A stretch of DNA of 64,000 nt from Streptacidiphilus sp. ASG 303 (lineage in GTDB: Bacteria; Actinomycetota; Actinomycetes; Streptomycetales; Streptomycetaceae): positions 1-64,000 of the forward strand of contig NZ_JAJLRA010000025.1 of NCBI RefSeq assembly GCF_020991365.1, given 5' to 3'. This document shows, piece by piece, positions 2,371 through 11,616 of this stretch (its first letter is position 1; each line of letters begins with the position of its first letter). Below the pieces are notes generated by a model that was given only the letters and a program-made list of their open reading frames with translations, had not been told where the DNA came from and searched no databases. The translations under genes and the position numbers were made by a program.

Positions 2371-2817
2371 TCATCCCCTCATGGATGCCGGTTCCGGCTG
2401 GTGCGTTCGGGTCGTCTCGTCGTAGCGCAGTGCGACCCTGACGGTCCGACCGTTCACATGGCTGAGCACGTCCATGCGGCTGGAGAGGGCTTCGACCAGG
2501 GCGAGGCCTCGACCGCTGGTGGAGCTGTCGTCGGCCTGGCGGGCGTGGGGGATGTCGAGGGCTCCGCCGTTGTCGGAGACGGCCATGACGAACAGGCCCG
2601 GTGTCCAGGTGAGCATGACGGTGAAGAGTCCGCCGGGCCGGCCGCTGTGGGTGTGGGTGATGGCGTTGGTGCTCAGCTCGGAGGCGATGAGTTCGGCTTC
2701 GTCGGCGCACGGGTAGCCGCGGCAGACGTCCCTGATCCAGCGGCGGACCCGGCCGACTTCCTGTGCTTCCCCTGGACAGGTGAGGTGCCAGACGCGGTAA
2801 GCTTCTCGTCTACTCAT
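2371..2817 (-). CDS. RsbW-like ATP-binding protein
   Basis: This is a 148-aa GHKL/HATPase_c_2 protein of the anti-sigma-factor kinase type. The N box ELSTNAITHT (about residues 46-55), the G1 box SDNGG and the G2 box SGRGLALVEAL are all present, so it should bind ATP. Streptomycetes carry many such orphan proteins. Partners are usually sigma factors or anti-anti-sigma (STAS) proteins, but neither is encoded nearby. The ATG at 2817 has GAAGGAC about ten bases upstream. The NUDIX gene lies upstream in the same orientation with about 50 bases between, so the two may be cotranscribed. It probably rides on the integrated element. Confidence 0.8.
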   Translation of the reverse strand: MSRREAYRVWHLTCPGEAQEVGRVRRWIRDVCRGYPCADEAELIASELSTNAITHTHSGRPGGLFTVMLTWTPGLFVMAVSDNGGALDIPHARQADDSSTSGRGLALVEALSSRMDVLSHVNGRTVRVALRYDETTRTHQPEPASMRG

Positions 2818-2867: not shown

Positions 2868-3299
2868 CTAGATGAGTCTCACGCCGTCGTGGGCTCGGAC
2901 GGCGGGAGGGGAGGGGGCGTCGAGGGCGTCCAGGACCCGGATCGCGTAGGCCTCGTCGCAGAGGTCGGTGACCTCGTCGCGGGTGGCCCAGCGCAGGGCG
3001 TGGGTCTCGTCGCCGGTGGTGAGTGATCCCTCGACGGCTTCGCAGCGGAAGACCATCGCGACGATCAGGCGGGTCATGTTCTTGTAGACGCCGGTGAGGA
3101 CGGCCGGGGTCTGGATCTTGAGTCCGGTCTCCTCGTAGACCTCGCGCGCGAGCGCGTCGGGGATGGTCTCGCCGGCCTCCAGCACACCGCCGGGCGGCTC
3201 CCAGTGGCCGTTGTCCCGGCGCTTGATGAGCAGGGCGCGTCCGTGGTCGTCCACGATGACCCCGGCGACGCTCACCGAGTGGGGTCGGTCGTTCGTCAC
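2868..3299 (-). CDS. NUDIX hydrolase, candidate pSAM2 Pif-like immunity protein
   Basis: The product is 143 aa with a complete NUDIX box at residues 38-60 (G-x5-E-x7-REVYEETGL), so the metal-binding glutamates are intact and hydrolysis of a nucleoside-diphosphate-linked substrate is expected. The start is GTG at 3299 with GGAAAGGG upstream. It is divergent from the GntR repressor. In pSAM2 the immunity factor Pif, which blocks redundant transfer between element-bearing cells, carries a NUDIX motif and belongs to the element. The position beside the repressor suggests the same role here, but this is inference. An ordinary housekeeping NUDIX enzyme carried as cargo is the alternative. Confidence 0.8.
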   Translation of the reverse strand: MTNDRPHSVSVAGVIVDDHGRALLIKRRDNGHWEPPGGVLEAGETIPDALAREVYEETGLKIQTPAVLTGVYKNMTRLIVAMVFRCEAVEGSLTTGDETHALRWATRDEVTDLCDEAYAIRVLDALDAPSPPAVRAHDGVRLI

Positions 3300-3357
3300 G
3301 ATCGCTGCCCTTTCCGCTGGCTACGCTTCCACCGTAGCAACGGTCCGGCCGTGCACA

Positions 3358-3367
3358 CGTCTAGATG
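3358..3367. promoter_or_regulatory. Putative GntR operator before its own gene
   Basis: CGTCTAGATG lies 17 bases before the GntR start codon. It is the exact reverse complement of the CATCTAGACG core found twice ahead of the transfer operon (4250-4259 and 4324-4333), which suggests autoregulation. A separate small dyad, GCTACG/CGTAGC at 3320-3338, lies between this site and the divergent NUDIX gene. Confidence 0.55.
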
Positions 3368-3383
3368 CCTCAAGGAGTACTCC

Positions 3384-4172
3384 ATGGCTGCTCTCTCCTC
3401 CGGCTCCATCGGCTCGCTCGACCCCATGAGCGACCGGGCCGTCTTTCGGCAGATCGCCGACCGCATCCGTGAGGCCATCGACCGCGGCACCTTCCGGGAG
3501 GGTGACAAGCTCCCCTCCGAGACGGAGCTGATTGAGTACTTCGGCGTCTCGCGGATGACCGTGCGCAACGCGCTCCAGCTGCTCCAGGGGGAGGGCCTGG
3601 TCGTCTCCGAGCACGGGCGTGGGGTCTACGTGCGGCCCCGGCCCCCGGTACGGCGGCTGGCCTCGGACCGCTTCGCCCGGCGCCATCGCGAGCAGGGCAA
3701 GTCCGCGTTCATCGTGGAGGCGGACGCCGCGGGCAGCCACCCGGCGGTCGACAGCCTGGAGGTCAAGGAGGAGCGGCCGGCTCCGGAGGTCGCCACCCGC
3801 CTCGGCTCGCCGCACCGGGTCCTCGCCCGGCGCCGCCGCTACCTGCTGGACGGGCGGCCGGTGGAGTTTGCGACCTCCTACCTGCCGCTGGACATCGCCC
3901 GGGGCACCCCGATCGCGCAGCCGAACCCCGGACCCGGCGGCATCTACGCCCGACTGGAGGAGCTGGGCCACCGCCTGGACCACTTCGAGGAGGAGATCCG
4001 CGTGCGGATGCCCTCGCCGCAGGAGGTCAAGGTCCTCCAGCTCGCCGCGGGCATCCCGGTGATCCACCTGGTCCGCATCGCCTTCGACAGCGACGGCCGG
4101 GCCGTCGAGGTCTGCGACACCATCATGGCGGCGGACGCCTACGTCCTCTCCTACCGCCTGCCGGCCACCTGA
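3384..4172 (+). CDS. GntR-family (HutC/UTRA) repressor of the element, KorSA-like
   Basis: The product is 262 aa from the ATG at 3384, with AAGGAG at 3372-3377. The frame continues upstream, but no ribosome site supports a longer form. Residues about 14-80 form the winged helix-turn-helix (LPSETELIEYFGVSRMTVRN is the recognition region). Residues about 95-255 look like a UTRA ligand-sensing domain. In pSAM2-type elements a GntR protein, KorSA, sits in this position and represses the activator and transfer genes. The shared palindromic motif flanking this gene supports that role. Divergent from NUDIX and codirectional with the transfer operon. Confidence 0.87.
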   Translation: MAALSSGSIGSLDPMSDRAVFRQIADRIREAIDRGTFREGDKLPSETELIEYFGVSRMTVRNALQLLQGEGLVVSEHGRGVYVRPRPPVRRLASDRFARRHREQGKSAFIVEADAAGSHPAVDSLEVKEERPAPEVATRLGSPHRVLARRRRYLLDGRPVEFATSYLPLDIARGTPIAQPNPGPGGIYARLEELGHRLDHFEEEIRVRMPSPQEVKVLQLAAGIPVIHLVRIAFDSDGRAVEVCDTIMAADAYVLSYRLPAT

Positions 4173-4208: not shown

Positions 4209-4333
4209 TTGACGCTCCTCTGCAACTCGTACACACTCAGAGGTGTACTCATCTAGACGAGTGGATATCTAGAGAGTGCAGCCATCCCGTGCGCCTCCCG
4301 CTGCCCGCTGCTCGATCGCAACTCATCTAGACG
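4209..4333 (+). promoter_or_regulatory. Transfer-operon promoter with two GntR operators
   Basis: TTGACG at 4209-4214 is a good -35 box, with CACACT 17 bases later as a possible -10. ACTCATCTAGACGAGT (4247-4262) is a 16-bp near-palindrome with one mismatched pair. ACTCATCTAGACGACT (4321-4336) repeats it, and a weaker TATCTAGAGA lies at 4266-4275. Placement just downstream of the promoter fits repression by the GntR protein. Confidence 0.6.
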
Positions 4334-4389
4334 ACTAGGTGTTGAGGTCGGCCGGGCCCGGGAGGACGAGAAGCAAGAGGAGACATCCT

Positions 4390-4740
4390 GTGCGTGCCAT
4401 CCGAGTCGAGACTTCCTCGGCCACGATCCTGCTCACCGAGCCCCCGGCCCCGAAGCTGCGGGACCGGCAGACCGGCGAGATCGCCAAGGACGCCGTCACT
4501 GGTGAGGCGCTGATGACGGTCGGCGTCGTCTACATCGACGAGGGGGAGTCCTCCCTCCTCTCGGTGACCGTCCCGCAGAGCGGCGTCACCGACGGGCTGC
4601 CCGTCGGCTCGCCGGTCTCGCTGCCCGGCCTGGTGGCCCGGCCGTGGGAGAGCGTCTTCAACGGGCAGGCCCGGCACGGCATCGCCTACCGGGCCGCCGC
4701 CGTCGCCCCGGGCGCCTTCCCGGTCCGGGCGGAGGGCTGA
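4390..4740 (+). CDS. Small AICE regulatory protein (SCO3933-like)
   Basis: The product is 116 aa from the GTG at 4390, with AGAGGAGA just upstream. The sequence begins MRAIRVETSSATILLTEPP and contains DRQTGEIAKDAVTGEALMTVGVVYIDEG. I recall this as a small family encoded directly before traSA in many streptomycete elements and annotated as SCO3933-family regulatory protein. It looks like a compact beta-rich protein with no membrane segment. It is the first gene of the transfer-replication operon, five bases before traSA, so coupled translation is likely. It may play the activator role that Pra plays in pSAM2, but that is inference from position. Confidence 0.75.
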   Translation: MRAIRVETSSATILLTEPPAPKLRDRQTGEIAKDAVTGEALMTVGVVYIDEGESSLLSVTVPQSGVTDGLPVGSPVSLPGLVARPWESVFNGQARHGIAYRAAAVAPGAFPVRAEG

Positions 4741-4745
4741 TCGCC

Positions 4746-6122
4746 GTGACGGACCTGGTGACCCTGCTGGAGGTCGGCGGACCGCTGGCGGCCGGAGGAG
4801 CGGGGGCGGCCTGGACCAAGGCCAAGGCCCCGGCGGTGTACTGGTCGGCCGTCGGCCTGCCGTTCACCGCCGCCCGCTTCACCGCCACCTACGGCTCCAC
4901 GATGGACGCGTGCGGCCTGACCGTCGCCCCCTCCCGCCTGCGGGCGGCCCTCATCCGCGCCACCACCCGGCGTGAGGTCCGCCCCGTCCCGCCGAAGGTG
5001 CGGCGCATCCGCCCGACCACGACCGGCCTGCGCGTCCGGCTCCGCCTCGCCCCCGGGCAGGAGCCGGCCGACGTGGCCGCCTCGGCCGAACGCCTCCGCC
5101 ACGCCTGGGGTGTGCACGCCGTCCACGTCACCGAGATACGGCCCGGCCTGGTCGAACTCCGCATGACCGGCTTCGACGTGCTCACCCGGGTGCGCATGCC
5201 GCGCCGCCTCCCGTCCGGCCCGATGCTCGTCCCGGTCGCGCTGCGGGAGGACGGCACCGCCTTCGTCCGCGACTACCGCGCCGTCCCGCACGCGCTCACC
5301 CTGGGCGCGAACCAGTCCGGCAAGTCCATGTACCTGCGGAACCTGGTCAGCGGGCTCGCCCGGCGGCCGGTCGCGCTGGTCGGCATCGACTGCAAGCGCG
5401 GAGTCGAACAGGCACCCTTCGCCCCGCGCCTGTCCGCCCTGGCCACCGACCCCGGGCAGGCGGCCGAACTGCTCGACGTCCTGGTGGCGGAGATGCAGGA
5501 GCGCTACGACCTGATCCGGCAGCGGCAGGGCATCGCCCCCGCCACAGCGGCGGAGGAGATCACCTCCGACATCTGGGGCCTGCCGGCCAAGGTCCGGCCG
5601 GTGCCGATCGTCCTCCTGGTGGACGAGATCGCCGAACTCTTCCTCACCGCCACCCGCAAGGACGAGGAACGGCGCGACGCGATGGTCACCCAGCTCATCC
5701 GCCTCGCCCAGCTCGGCCGCGCCGCCGGGATCTACCTGGAGATCTGCGGCCAGCGCTTCGGCTCCGAACTCGGCAAGGGCGCCACCATGCTCCGCGCCCA
5801 GCTCACCGGCCGCGTCGTCCACCGCGTCAACGACCGGCAGACCGCCGAGATGGGCCTCGGCGACATCTCCCCCGAAGCCATGCTCGCCGCCACCGCCATC
5901 CCCCCGGAGCGTCCCGGCGTCGCGGTGGCGGGCGACTCCTCCGGCGGCTGGTCCCGCATCCGCACCCCCGAGATGACCCTCGCCGCCGCCGCGGCCGTCT
6001 GCCGGGAGTCCGCACACTTGGTCCCCGACGTCCCCGCCCTGGACCCGTTCCGCCCGTACGTCCCGGCCGCCCGCGAGCCGGCCGAAGCGCCCCGCACCGC
6101 ACCGCTGCCCGTCACCGAGTAG
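4746..6122 (+). CDS. traSA: FtsK/SpoIIIE-type DNA translocase TraSA (conjugal transfer)
   Basis: The product is 458 aa from the GTG at 4746, with GGAGGG in the tail of the previous gene. It begins with a hydrophobic, membrane-associating stretch, then a basic linker. The P-loop GANQSGKS is at residues 187-194 and the Walker B IVLLVDEIAELF about 110 residues later, followed by LGRAAGIYLEICGQRF, typical of the FtsK RecA-like core. Streptomycete conjugation needs only this hexameric pump, which moves double-stranded DNA between mycelial compartments. No toxin-like or extra domains are visible. It is part of the operon ending with int. Confidence 0.93.
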   Translation: MTDLVTLLEVGGPLAAGGAGAAWTKAKAPAVYWSAVGLPFTAARFTATYGSTMDACGLTVAPSRLRAALIRATTRREVRPVPPKVRRIRPTTTGLRVRLRLAPGQEPADVAASAERLRHAWGVHAVHVTEIRPGLVELRMTGFDVLTRVRMPRRLPSGPMLVPVALREDGTAFVRDYRAVPHALTLGANQSGKSMYLRNLVSGLARRPVALVGIDCKRGVEQAPFAPRLSALATDPGQAAELLDVLVAEMQERYDLIRQRQGIAPATAAEEITSDIWGLPAKVRPVPIVLLVDEIAELFLTATRKDEERRDAMVTQLIRLAQLGRAAGIYLEICGQRFGSELGKGATMLRAQLTGRVVHRVNDRQTAEMGLGDISPEAMLAATAIPPERPGVAVAGDSSGGWSRIRTPEMTLAAAAAVCRESAHLVPDVPALDPFRPYVPAAREPAEAPRTAPLPVTE

Positions 6123-6211
6123 CCACCCGCCCCCACCGGTCGGCGCGACCGCCTCCGCGCCAGGTCCCTACCGCCCCCATGCCCGAAACCGACCCGAGAG
6201 GAGCCCCCACG

Positions 6212-6871
6212 GTGGCCCGTCTGCCCCGCCGCCCGGACGCCGTGCTCGTCCAGGCCGTCATCGCCGGTGCCCTGTCCTTCGCCCACCTCCACGACATCGC
6301 GGCGGCGGCCGGGCAGGACGGCTGGAAGGCGTGGGCCTACCCCGTCTCCGTCGACCTGCTGCTGGTCGCAGCCTGGCGCCGCATGCGCACCCTGCGCGCC
6401 ACCGGGGCCCCCGCCCGCTCGGCCTGGACTTGGTTCGCCACCGCCCTGACCGCATCCCTCGGTGCCAACATCGCCACCGCCGGACTCCTCGACCTGGCCG
6501 CGGTCCCCGCCTGGCTGCGCATCCTCGTCGCCGGATGGCCTGCCGTCGCCTTCTTCGGCGGCACCCTCCTCGCCCACACCCCCACCGGCACCACTGAGGC
6601 GGAGCCTGCCGACACCCCGGACTCCGTCTACGCCGAGCAGGACCCGGAGCCGGAACCGGTCACACCCCCGCCGCCGGCACCCGCCCTGCCCCCGGCCCCG
6701 GTCTCCTCCGCGCCGCCGGTCCCGGCCGCCCTGGTCGAGCACGCCCGCAAGGTCGCCGACGACCACCGCGCCCGTACCGGCACGCCGATCGACACCGCCA
6801 CCCTGCGCGCCCGCCTCGGCGTCACGCCCCAGCTCGCCGACGCCATCGCCGCCCGGCTCCAGCCCGCCTGA
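6212..6871 (+). CDS. SpdB2-like DUF2637 membrane spread protein
   Basis: The product is 219 aa from the GTG at 6212, with GAGAGGAG eight bases upstream. Four membrane segments are visible (starting near VLVQAVIAGAL, AYPVSVDLLLVAAW, TWFATALTASLGANIA and LRILVAGWPAVAFFGG), matching DUF2637. A Pro/Ala/Glu-rich linker follows, then a short helical C-terminal module (ATLRARLGVTPQLADAIAA) that resembles a degenerate helix-turn-helix. Spd proteins are thought to help the element spread from the first recipient compartment along the hypha, working with the TraSA pump. An octamer GACCCGGA, the pSVH1-type TraB recognition word, lies at 6641-6648 but only once. Confidence 0.85.
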   Translation: MARLPRRPDAVLVQAVIAGALSFAHLHDIAAAAGQDGWKAWAYPVSVDLLLVAAWRRMRTLRATGAPARSAWTWFATALTASLGANIATAGLLDLAAVPAWLRILVAGWPAVAFFGGTLLAHTPTGTTEAEPADTPDSVYAEQDPEPEPVTPPPPAPALPPAPVSSAPPVPAALVEHARKVADDHRARTGTPIDTATLRARLGVTPQLADAIAARLQPA

Positions 6872-7581: not shown

Positions 7582-8948
7582 TGACCGCGACCACCGCGCC
7601 CCCGCTCGCCGACCTGGTCTCGATCGCCCAGCTCGGCACGATGCCCGCCCTGCTCCGCCAGCTCCAGGGACTCGGCGGCTGCACCCACCCCGTCCGCCTC
7701 GACGGCCACCGCACCGAGATCCACGCTGGCACCGGCGAGGTCCTGCACCACCTCACCTCCACCGACCTCCCCGCCGGCCACCTCCTCATCCGCTGCGGCA
7801 ACCGCCGCGCCACCCGCTGCCCAGCCTGCGCCGAGACCTACCGCCGCGACACCTACCACCTGATCACCGCAGGCCTGCGCGGCGGCAAGGGCACCCCCGA
7901 CCACGTCGCCACCCACCCGCGGGTCTTCGCCACCTTCACCGCCCCCTCCTTCGGCCCCGTCCACAACCGCCCCACCGGACCGGCCGGAGCCGTCCGCCCC
8001 TGCCGCTGCGGCACCCTCCACGACCCCGACGCCCCGGACCTGGGCACCCCGCTCGACCCCGACACCTACGACTACCGCGGCGCCGTCCTGTGGAACGCCC
8101 ACGCCGGAGCCCTATGGCGGCGCTTCTCCATCTACCTGCGCCGCGAGGTCGCCAAGCGCGCCGGGCTCACCCAGCGCGCTTTCCGCGACCACGCCCGCAT
8201 CTCCTTCGCCAAGGTCGCCGAGTACCAGCGCCGGGGCCTGGTCCACTTCCACGCCGTCATCCGCCTCGACGGCCCCGACGGCGGCACCACCCCGCCCCCG
8301 CCCTGGGCCACTCCGGACCTGCTCGCCGACGCCATCCGGGCCGCCGCTGCTGCCGCCCGTATCCCCGGCCCGACCGTCGACGGCCGTACGTACGCCTTCG
8401 CCTTCGGCCGCCAGCTCGACATCCGCACCATCCGGTCGGCCGACCTCGACGGCGGCACCGACCTCACCGAACGCGCGGTCGCCGCCTACATCGCCAAATA
8501 CGCCACCAAGGGCGCCGAGACCGCCACCGGCACTCTCGACCGCCCCGTCCGCCTGATCGCCGAACTCGCCCACCTCGACCTCACCGACCACGCCCGCCGC
8601 ATGATCCGCACCTGCTGGGAGCTCGGCGCCCGCCCCGACCTGGAAGACCTCCGGCTCCGGGCCTGGGCCCACATGCTCGGCTTCCGCGGCCACTTCTCCA
8701 CCAAGACCCGCCGCTACTCCACCACCCTCGGCGCCCTCCGCGACGCCCGCGCCGCCTGGCGCCGCGCCCAGGCCCTCGCCGCCCACGCCGACACCCGCCC
8801 CGACCTCACCGGCGCCCAGGAGGAGGAGACCACCCTCGTCCTCGCCCACTGGGCCTTCGCCGGCACCGGCCTCACCCCCGGCGAGACCTGGCTCACCCAA
8901 GCCCTCACCCCCGCACCCGGAACGGAAGGAGAACCCACCCATGCCTGA
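7581..8948 (+). CDS. repSA: RepSA-type rolling-circle replication initiator
   Basis: The product is 455 aa from the ATG at 7581. Features are a CGNRRATRCPAC zinc-like motif near residue 76, the HFHAVIRLDG segment (the His-x-His metal motif of rolling-circle initiators) and YIAKYATKG, where one of the tyrosines is the likely nicking residue. RepSA-type initiators let pSAM2-like elements replicate after excision. It is coupled to the upstream Spd gene and overlaps xis by eight bases. The prim-pol gene found with some other AICE replication systems is absent, consistent with the pSAM2 type. Confidence 0.93.
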   Translation: MTATTAPPLADLVSIAQLGTMPALLRQLQGLGGCTHPVRLDGHRTEIHAGTGEVLHHLTSTDLPAGHLLIRCGNRRATRCPACAETYRRDTYHLITAGLRGGKGTPDHVATHPRVFATFTAPSFGPVHNRPTGPAGAVRPCRCGTLHDPDAPDLGTPLDPDTYDYRGAVLWNAHAGALWRRFSIYLRREVAKRAGLTQRAFRDHARISFAKVAEYQRRGLVHFHAVIRLDGPDGGTTPPPPWATPDLLADAIRAAAAAARIPGPTVDGRTYAFAFGRQLDIRTIRSADLDGGTDLTERAVAAYIAKYATKGAETATGTLDRPVRLIAELAHLDLTDHARRMIRTCWELGARPDLEDLRLRAWAHMLGFRGHFSTKTRRYSTTLGALRDARAAWRRAQALAAHADTRPDLTGAQEEETTLVLAHWAFAGTGLTPGETWLTQALTPAPGTEGEPTHA

Positions 8949-9153
8949 GCAGCTGCTGACCGTCGCCCAGGTCGCCGAACTCCTCGGCACCACGGAGCGC
9001 TTCCCGCGCCGTCTGATCGCCGAACGGCGCATCGTCTTCGTCCGGGTGGGGCGGCACGTCCGCATCCCCGAGAGCGCACTGTCGGCCTTCGTCCAGACCA
9101 ACACCGTCCAGCCGGTCACCACTCGGCGGCAGGGCTACCGGAGGGCTGCCTGA
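8941..9153 (+). CDS. xis: Excisionase (HTH_17/MerR-like)
   Basis: The product is 70 aa. It contains LTVAQVAELLGTTERFPRRLIAERRIVFVRVGRHVRIPESAL (quoted here only to locate residues 6-47; the key points are the helix-turn-helix and the GRHVRIP wing). Such proteins bend attachment-site DNA and push the integrase reaction toward excision. It overlaps repSA by eight bases and int by one base (TGATG), the standard rep-xis-int order of pSAM2-like elements. Confidence 0.93.
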   Translation: MPEQLLTVAQVAELLGTTERFPRRLIAERRIVFVRVGRHVRIPESALSAFVQTNTVQPVTTRRQGYRRAA

Positions 9154-10316
9154 TGGCCAACAGCAAGGGCAGGCGCCGCCGCTTCGGCGCTGTGCGCAGG
9201 CTTCCCTCCGGCCGATGGCAGGCACGCTATCCGGGACCGGACGGAGTCCTCCGGCCGGCGGACCAGACCTTCGCCTCCAAGACCGACGCGGAGGTCTGGC
9301 TCACCCAGACGGAAGCCGACATGACACGCGGAGACTGGCGCGACCCGGATGCCGGGGCGGTCAACTTCACGGCGTACGCGGAAGCGTGGATCGCCGAGCG
9401 GGATCTCCGCCCGACCACGGAGGAGCTGTACCGGCGCCTTCTGCGCATCCACCTGGTCCCGACCTTCGGGGCCTGGAACCTGGACGAGATCAGCGCGCCC
9501 CGGGTGCGGGCCTGGCGGGCCGGTCTGCTGGAGGAGGGGAAGCGGGTCACCGCCGCCAAGGCGTACCGGCTGCTGAGCTCGATCCTGGCGACGGCCGCCG
9601 ACGACGAGCTCATCCGGCGGAACCCCTGCCGGATCCGGGGCGGCGGCAAGGAGTCCTCACCCGAACGCGGGACGGCGACCATCGAGCAGGTCTACGAGCT
9701 GGCGGAGCTGGTGGGCCCCCGCTGGCGGGCGCTGGTCCTCCTGGCGGCCTTCACCACCCTGCGCCCGGAAGAGCTGGCGGAGCTGCGCCGACCGGACGTC
9801 GACCTCGACGCGGGGACCGTCCGGGTGCGCATGGCGGCGCCGGAGCTGACCACGGGCCGCCGGGTGGTCGGCGACCCGAAGTCGGACGCGGGCAGGCGCA
9901 CGGTCACCATTCCGGCCGTGGTCCTGCCGGATATCCGCCGGCACCTGGAATGGTTCGCCGAGCGGGAACCCGGCGGGCTGCTTTTCGTCGGCGAAAAGGG
10001 CGGCGCATTCCGCCGCTCGACCTTCGGCCGGATCTGGCGGAGGGCGCGGGACAAGGCCGGCCTGCCGGGCTTCCGCTTCTACGACCTGCGCCACACCGGC
10101 AACACGCTCGCCGCCGCGACCGGGGCCAGCCTCAAGGAGCTGATGGCCCGCATGGGCCACGCCTCGGTGCGAGCCGCCCTGGTCTACCAGCACGCCACCG
10201 CGGAGCGGGACCGCCGGATCGCCGAGGGGATCGACGCGGCCGTGGTCGAGATCCGGGGCCGGGGGAGGCAGAGGGGCGATGGCCCTTCTGGCACGGAACT
10301 GGCACGCGACGCCTGA
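9153..10316 (+). CDS. int: Tyrosine recombinase integrase
   Basis: The product is 387 aa from the ATG at 9153, coupled to xis. The N-terminal part holds an AP2-like/arm-binding region and a SAM-like core-binding domain. In the catalytic domain the first Arg lies in TTLRPEELAELR, a Lys in DPKSDAGRR, then FYDLRHTGNT, MGHAS and the nucleophile Tyr345 in ALVYQH. The usual first His of the HxxR box is Tyr here, a variant I associate with this integrase group rather than a defect. It lies 66 bases from the 3' end of tRNA-Gly(CCC), the expected attachment site. Confidence 0.95.
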   Translation: MANSKGRRRRFGAVRRLPSGRWQARYPGPDGVLRPADQTFASKTDAEVWLTQTEADMTRGDWRDPDAGAVNFTAYAEAWIAERDLRPTTEELYRRLLRIHLVPTFGAWNLDEISAPRVRAWRAGLLEEGKRVTAAKAYRLLSSILATAADDELIRRNPCRIRGGGKESSPERGTATIEQVYELAELVGPRWRALVLLAAFTTLRPEELAELRRPDVDLDAGTVRVRMAAPELTTGRRVVGDPKSDAGRRTVTIPAVVLPDIRRHLEWFAEREPGGLLFVGEKGGAFRRSTFGRIWRRARDKAGLPGFRFYDLRHTGNTLAAATGASLKELMARMGHASVRAALVYQHATAERDRRIAEGIDAAVVEIRGRGRQRGDGPSGTELARDA

Positions 10317-10374: not shown

Positions 10375-10382
10375 TCTTCTGG

Positions 10383-10453
10383 AGCGGGTGACGAGAATCG
10401 AACTCGCGCTCTGAGCTTGGGAAGCTCATGTTCTACCATTAAACTACACCCGC
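10383..10453 (-). tRNA. tRNA-Gly(CCC), AICE attachment site
   Basis: On the minus strand a full cloverleaf is visible. The acceptor stem is GCGGGTG/CACCCGC, the D-arm includes GTTTAATGGTAGAAC, and the anticodon stem TGAGC/GCTCA closes loop TTCCCAA (anticodon CCC). The T-arm carries GTTCGATTC, with a U discriminator. CCA is not encoded completely. The 3' end faces int, so this copy was restored by integration of the element. Confidence 0.96.
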
Positions 10454-11040: not shown

Positions 11041-11616
11041 GTGCTGCTCTCTGACAAGGACATCCGGGCCGAGATCGACAAGGGCCGCGTGGTCATCGAC
11101 CCGTACGAGCCGGCGATGATCCAGCCGTCCAGCATCGACGTCCGCCTGGACCGCTTCTTCCGGGTGTTCGAGAACCACCGCTACCCGCACATCGACCCTT
11201 CCGAGGAGCAGCCGGACCTGACCCGTCTGGTGGAGCCGGAGGGGGACGACGCGTTCATCCTGCACCCGGGCGAGTTCGTGCTGGCCTCGACGTACGAGGT
11301 CGTCACGCTCCCGGACGACATCGCCTCCCGGCTGGAGGGCAAGTCCAGCCTCGGCCGGCTGGGCCTGCTGACGCACTCCACGGCGGGCTTCATCGACCCG
11401 GGCTTCAGCGGCCACGTCACGCTGGAGCTGTCGAACGTGGCCACCCTGCCGATCAAGCTCTACCCGGGCATGAAGATCGGCCAGCTGTGCATGTTCCGGC
11501 TCACCTCGCCGGCCGAGCACCCGTACGGCTCCGAGCGGCACGGCTCCCGCTACCAGGGCCAGCGCGGACCGACCCCGTCGCGGTCCTACCTCAACTTCCA
11601 CCGCACCCGGGTCTGA
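11041..11616 (+). CDS. dcd: dCTP deaminase
   Basis: The product is 191 aa, the usual length. It converts dCTP to dUTP, feeding dTMP synthesis. Conserved [11 protein letters not shown] start, [20 protein letters not shown] and HVTLELSN segments are present, the last near the catalytic Glu region. GTG start at 11041; a TAACCT box at 11029-11034 lies only six bases before it and no ribosome site exists, so the mRNA is probably leaderless. Stands alone between a hairpin and a convergent gene. In streptomycetes dcd close to a tRNA-Gly gene is familiar to me. Confidence 0.97.

Follow-up and report, generated by a model that had tools for sequence, protein, structure and literature searches.

The question raised by this locus is whether a NUDIX hydrolase gene at positions 2868 to 3299 (minus strand) of a contig of Streptacidiphilus sp. 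ASG 303 (NZ_JAJLRA010000025.1) is a transfer-immunity gene of an AICE, comparable to pif of pSAM2, or a housekeeping enzyme. A preliminary description of the sequence had noted an intact NUDIX box and a divergent repressor gene, and had suggested a transfer-exclusion gene in the place of pif. The window, i.e. the whole stretch of 64,000 nucleotides that was analysed, begins at the first base of the contig, and the left end of the element lies outside it.

The NUDIX gene and the element around it

The ORF, of the type called A1 below, has a GTG start and encodes 143 amino acids matching the Pfam family PF00293 (E 1e-20, 74.5 bits, cut-off 21.1). The pattern GX5EX7REUXEEXGU is intact at residues 38-60 (G38, E44, R52, E53, E56, E57 and G59; positions 3120 to 3188, minus strand), and the product is thus a member of the NUDIX family. 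The gene starts 84 bp from, and divergently to, the start of a gene for a KorSA-like GntR-UTRA repressor (3384 to 4172, plus strand; PF00392, 3.8e-23; PF07702, 2e-28), which bears out this part of the preliminary description. Downstream of the NUDIX gene, after a gap of 50 bp, lies a gene for an anti-sigma-kinase-like HATPase_c_2 protein (2371 to 2817, minus strand; PF13581, 8.4e-15).

The repressor gene is followed on the plus strand by genes for a Pra-family regulator (SCO3933 family, 4390 to 4740; NF051478, 6.5e-38, 129 bits, above the cut-off of 80), an FtsK/SpoIIIE-type transfer protein similar to TraB/TraSA (4746 to 6122; PF01580, 1.5e-33), a DUF2637 membrane protein that its position suggests to be Spd-like (6179 to 6871; PF10935, 6.5e-20), a RepSA-type replication initiator (7608 to 8948; PF20199, 2.7e-160; NF041486, 552 bits, below the cut-off of 700), an excisionase (8941 to 9153; TIGR01764) and a tyrosine integrase (9153 to 10316; PF00589, 3e-16). 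A tRNA-Gly(CCC) gene (10380 to 10453, minus strand) comes next and is the likely attachment site. The gene order NUDIX, divergent GntR, Pra, TraB, Spd, RepSA, Xis, Int and tRNA-Gly is that of an AICE, and the tyrosine integrase, excisionase, RepSA and FtsK-like Tra beside a tRNA gene identify it as one of the RepSA type.

Partial copies (54 bp) of the 3' part of the tRNA-Gly(CCC) gene are found on two other contigs of the same genome, C145 and C134, and about 300 bases at the end of C134, read backwards, are nearly identical to positions 1-330 of the window. These repeats suggest that several AICEs occupy one tRNA-Gly(CCC) site or its vicinity, where the assembly breaks. A further RepSA copy of this genome (C156:311968-312909) contains two in-frame TGA stops and belongs to a decayed element.

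The box pattern is intact in all 128 type-A loci compared, 121 of which are distinct after removal of identical NUDIX sequences. Conserved motifs were also found outside the box (V...RPHSVSVAG, DNGxWE, LTGxYKN, VFRC, RxLDALD and RxHDG). As every box is intact and the median dN/dS among type-A pairs, which are non-independent, is ~0.18, the enzyme is probably active. The best AF2 model reached a pLDDT of 84.3 (the other four, 40-63), and a Foldseek search gave 625 PDB matches at E <= 0.001, including MutT2, Ap4A hydrolases and CDP-Chase. The predicted structure is thus an ordinary NUDIX fold and does not point to a substrate.

Linkage of the NUDIX gene to the repressor and to AICEs

Genome contigs were scanned with the NUDIX gene of the window, which yielded 329 relatives; the analysis continued with the best 80 (76-86% identity). 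A divergent GntR gene was found beside 78 of these 80 (the exceptions being L079 and L098), a co-directional HATPase gene beside 75, and both TraB and RepSA within 9.5 kb of 61. Neither TraB nor RepSA was detected for 14 of them, with at least 5.5 kb visible on that side, and the remaining 5 loci are cut or partial. This set was selected via NUDIX, and a converse set was selected via RepSA: 80 elements hand-picked among the matches listed (40 + 40), several of them from a single genome. Pra was present in 69 of the latter elements and absent from 11. A GntR gene lies co-directionally upstream of Pra in 32 of the 69, and a type-A NUDIX gene is on the opposite strand in 31 of these 32 (the exception is L220). 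Among the remaining 37 Pra-bearing elements, 18 carry another or a more distant NUDIX gene and 19 none nearby (Fisher p 8e-6); thus, a NUDIX gene is not required by every AICE. The genome of the window itself contains six RepSA matches and one type-A NUDIX gene, the next best NUDIX being 39% identical.

The NUDIX gene of the window is therefore a gene of the element. A housekeeping NUDIX enzyme, also considered, is ruled out by the linkage in the RepSA-selected elements with GntR upstream of Pra, and the best relatives are not chromosomal enzymes devoid of element linkage. The suggestion of a transfer-exclusion gene holds in part: an AICE gene with a KorSA-like repressor as its constant neighbour and a role that agrees with print is retained, and the likeness to Pif is one of gene context.

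Three kinds of AICE NUDIX were distinguished. Type A pairs with GntR-UTRA and comprises A1, similar to that of the window, and A2, 52-61% identical to it. Type B (L149, L153 and L156) comes after an HTH regulator, for which the Pfam matches fall below the cut-off. The third kind, found in pSAM2-type elements (L148, L150, L151, L152 and L155), is a GntR wHTH fused to NUDIX in one ORF (for L150, Pfam gives 5.1e-19 for GntR and 1.6e-18 for NUDIX) and is separated from Pra by ~1.4-1.5 kb, which include another ORF. The regulator thus varies, and NUDIX often, if not always, accompanies it. A HATPase gene is present downstream of NUDIX in 66 of the 70 distinct full A1 elements and in none of the 23 A2 elements; the HATPase copies are mostly only ~40-50% identical to that of the window.

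In a plasmid collection, one divergent GntR partner (Nonomuraea) was found among four neighbourhoods, and no element genes were detected by tblastn in two of them, H2 and H3. A locus of Nonomuraea gerenzanensis (L015), from another order of Actinomycetes, has a divergent GntR (63%) and a NUDIX (64%) with no TraB or RepSA match nearby. Among 50,697 phage records, 6 matched the NUDIX gene, none of them across more than 80% of the query.

Predicted operators, backbones and copy numbers

Upstream of the Pra-family gene, the window contains an operator-like 16-bp palindrome, ACTCATCTAGACGAGT, at 4247 to 4262 (plus strand, no mismatch) and a second such site at 4321 to 4336 (plus strand, one mismatch). 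A weak site with three mismatches and one good half-site lies between NUDIX and GntR (3355 to 3370, plus strand). The operator pattern matched the window four times, against a mean of 0.17 in shuffled sequences, the best matches being the two before Pra; the match at 1212 is probably due to chance. With its GntR wHTH and UTRA domains and predicted operators before its own gene (3355, weak) and before pra (4247 and 4321, good), the repressor has the features of a KorSA-like protein.

In A1 loci the gaps carry a palindrome similar to ACTCGTCTAGACGAGT (TCTAGA-type), and in A2 loci ACTCATGTACATGAGT (TGTACA-type). The TCTAGA-type scores better in 83 of 87 NUDIX-GntR gaps and in all 72 distinct GntR-Pra gaps of A1, and the TGTACA-type in 25 of 27 NUDIX-GntR gaps and all 23 GntR-Pra gaps of A2; shuffled gaps score below the real ones. 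As the consensus was derived from the same sequences that were scored, what counts is that the two gaps agree and that the subtypes differ. There are thus two NUDIX/GntR subtypes with different predicted operators.

Some backbones close to that of the window carry the other subtype. In L188, L193 and L201, RepSA and TraB are 76-78% and 77-78% identical to those of the window, versus 55-56% for NUDIX, 48% for GntR and 50-54% for Pra, and their operators are of the A2 type. Similarly, an element on contig C77 of the same genome as the window (L184), whose RepSA and TraB are 92% and 83% identical to those of the window, has an XRE-TPR regulator instead of GntR, and no NUDIX gene was found in the stretch examined. 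It provides one example of coexistence across cassettes, beside the window element. Rank correlations over 86 loci between the identity of NUDIX to that of the window and the identities of the other genes were 0.38 for GntR, 0.39 for Pra, 0.31 for TraB, 0.50 for RepSA and 0.25 for Int, and GntR is not singled out as the closest companion of NUDIX. The whole backbone thus travels together within a subtype, and the case for swaps is carried by these few mosaics (L188, L193, L201 and L184), which suggest that the NUDIX/GntR pair may act as an exchangeable immunity unit.

TraB and RepSA were both missing nearby in 21 of the 121 distinct loci; these solitary loci (L080 is an example) have intact NUDIX boxes, and 17 of them kept GntR and 14 the HATPase gene. 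By synonymous distance, most solitary copies are nearest to a copy in a full element, which points to repeated losses of Tra/Rep as the probable source of solitary cassettes. One of them (L045) lies near a dcd-like gene, and a dcd-like gene also follows the tRNA-Gly gene of the window (11041-11616, an ORF identified by eye).

The 119 type-A NUDIX copies detected in 200 genomes are spread over 112 of them, with one copy in 105 genomes, two in 7 and none in 88 (variance/mean 0.53). Among the matches listed, RepSA copies are over-dispersed (1.67 in 91 genomes) and type-B NUDIX copies mildly under-dispersed (0.86). When labels were shuffled within genera on the RepSA elements listed, 3 genomes with at least two type-A copies were seen versus 9.0 expected (P 0.0004); here the RepSA count set an upper limit on the type-A copies, which left 51 of 60. 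A1 and A2 occur together in 1 of the 200 genomes, versus 14.8 expected irrespective of genus, and the within-genus test on 91 genomes gave 1 versus 4.5 expected (P 0.008). The eight same-genome pairs examined include five with a solitary copy, one on a short contig and two in which both elements are full. These two are L062/L081 and L236/L237; in the latter, one NUDIX gene has an internal stop and GntR was not found. Two NUDIX copies within one locus were seen in L061 (93.5% alike), L067 and L098 (second copy partial).

The prevalence of one copy per genome can also reflect vertical inheritance, competition for one attachment site or repressor incompatibility. A tRNA gene was found on the integrase side in 39 of 54 loci scanned, and integration beside several tRNAs, of seven kinds, argues against one inherited locus. 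Many of these tRNAs are Gly-CCC or Arg-CCT, so that site competition could contribute.

Role of the NUDIX gene and comparison with known systems

We consider it rather probable that the NUDIX gene of the window serves this AICE as its Pif-type transfer-immunity gene, and that the KorSA-like repressor, its operators and this gene make up a single cassette. The near-constant pairing in both directions (31/32 and 78/80), the intact boxes, the operator subtypes, the mosaics, the copy numbers and the published role of Pif all argue for this reading. In an element-bearing cell, GntR would silence Pra and, through Pra, rep, xis and int. The NUDIX enzyme would remove a nucleotide-like signal, or otherwise block whatever prompts transfer from a mating partner, and redundant transfer into such a cell would then fail. 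The operator subtypes, copy numbers and solitary loci fit such a cassette, as far as genomic data can tell. A bolder version, which we put forward tentatively, is that NUDIX, GntR and operators, perhaps with Pra, are an exchangeable AICE cassette, that coexistence of elements in a genome is determined by this cassette rather than by the Tra/Rep backbone, and that solitary cassettes persist by keeping their host immune.

As the NUDIX gene is almost invariably paired with a repressor whose UTRA domain binds ligands, the enzyme could also make or destroy a small nucleotide-like ligand of GntR-UTRA and so tune induction in the donor, immunity being a side effect. Other AICEs with a GntR wHTH-NUDIX fusion, or with NUDIX beside an HTH regulator, speak for such a regulatory partnership, which we hold to be possible but unlikely: Pif reportedly exerts its effect in the recipient (PMC3218068), and the fused ORFs, set apart from Pra by another ORF, may not be master repressors. 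We regard as quite improbable that the gene is a MutT-like nucleotide-sanitation cargo riding beside the repressor by chance. The ordinary fold and box and the kinds of PDB structures matched would suit it, and the NCBIfam 8-oxo-dGTP diphosphatase models do match, but far below their cut-offs (PRK10776, 43.5 versus 148 bits; TIGR00586, 37 versus 97.9 bits); by the linkage argument, such a cargo would neither be fixed beside one regulator type nor swap together with the regulator and its operators.

Even less credence is given to a defence gene kept by the host against AICEs or phages, with the solitary GntR-NUDIX pairs as domesticated forms. The solitary loci, with their intact boxes and frequent GntR and HATPase neighbours, would agree with it, as would a match to the PADLOC candidate model PDC-S07 (E 2.2e-17), but this model may describe no more than NUDIX in general, and full elements predominate (61 of the 80 best relatives). 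Moreover, the solitary cassettes may stem from recent deletions, and the dN/dS values come from non-independent pairs that do not separate out the solitary branches.

The immunity-cassette reading takes up an idea already in print, since NUDIX genes of AICEs have been taken for exclusion systems or for a guard against redundant transfer in the available text of PMC3218068, PMC9513070 and PMC11706625, the first of which called the mechanism and range of the Pif-type mating block unknown in 2011. New here are the operator subtypes, A2 cassettes on window-like backbones, the copy numbers and the solitary loci. In the accessible part of the literature on AICE NUDIX, pSAM2 and conjugal immunity, nothing was found on subtypes with matching operators, on the swapping of cassettes or on cassettes that stand alone. 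With its operator-matched subtypes, its natural swaps and its naturally solitary cassettes, the family described here opens both mechanism and range to experiment: one can ask which component determines specificity and whether a single NUDIX confers protection against related elements.

Pif of pSAM2 (Possoz et al. 2003) is, like the product of the gene in the window, a NUDIX protein, and in both cases the RepSA-type AICE has a KorSA-like GntR upstream of Pra; by these descriptions, the likeness is one of context and of the GntR-Pra order. The pSAM2 gene is placed in the chromosome of S. ambofaciens ATCC 23877, within island GI-3 (4,270,811-4,326,714 according to PMC11195616). A probe of the S. 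ambofaciens plasmid (pSAM1) gave no near-identical match in 392 Streptomyces genomes, the best being 83% over part of the probe. The element of the window differs from pSAM2 in its additional HATPase gene, in a RepSA that scores below the NF041486 cut-off and in tRNA-Gly(CCC) as the likely site. In the available descriptions of pSAM2, pra is downstream of korSA and KorSA sites lie upstream of both genes (the part of PMC4494728 at hand gives no KorSA site). The window similarly has GntR-UTRA directly upstream of a Pra-family gene and palindromic sites upstream of both, but the site described for pSAM2 has 17 nucleotides and that of the window is a 16-bp palindrome with a TCTAGA core. The SCO3932/SCO3933 pair, from the AICE remnant of S. 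coelicolor, also combines a GntR/HutC repressor with a Pra-family gene; according to the accessible text, which does not mention NUDIX, it differs in its motif and in that both genes share one intergenic region, where two binding sites lie. In the immunity regions of lambdoid phages, repressor and operators are exchanged jointly among related backbones. The logic proposed for the AICE cassette is similar without homology, and the AICE unit would include a hydrolase and concern conjugation.
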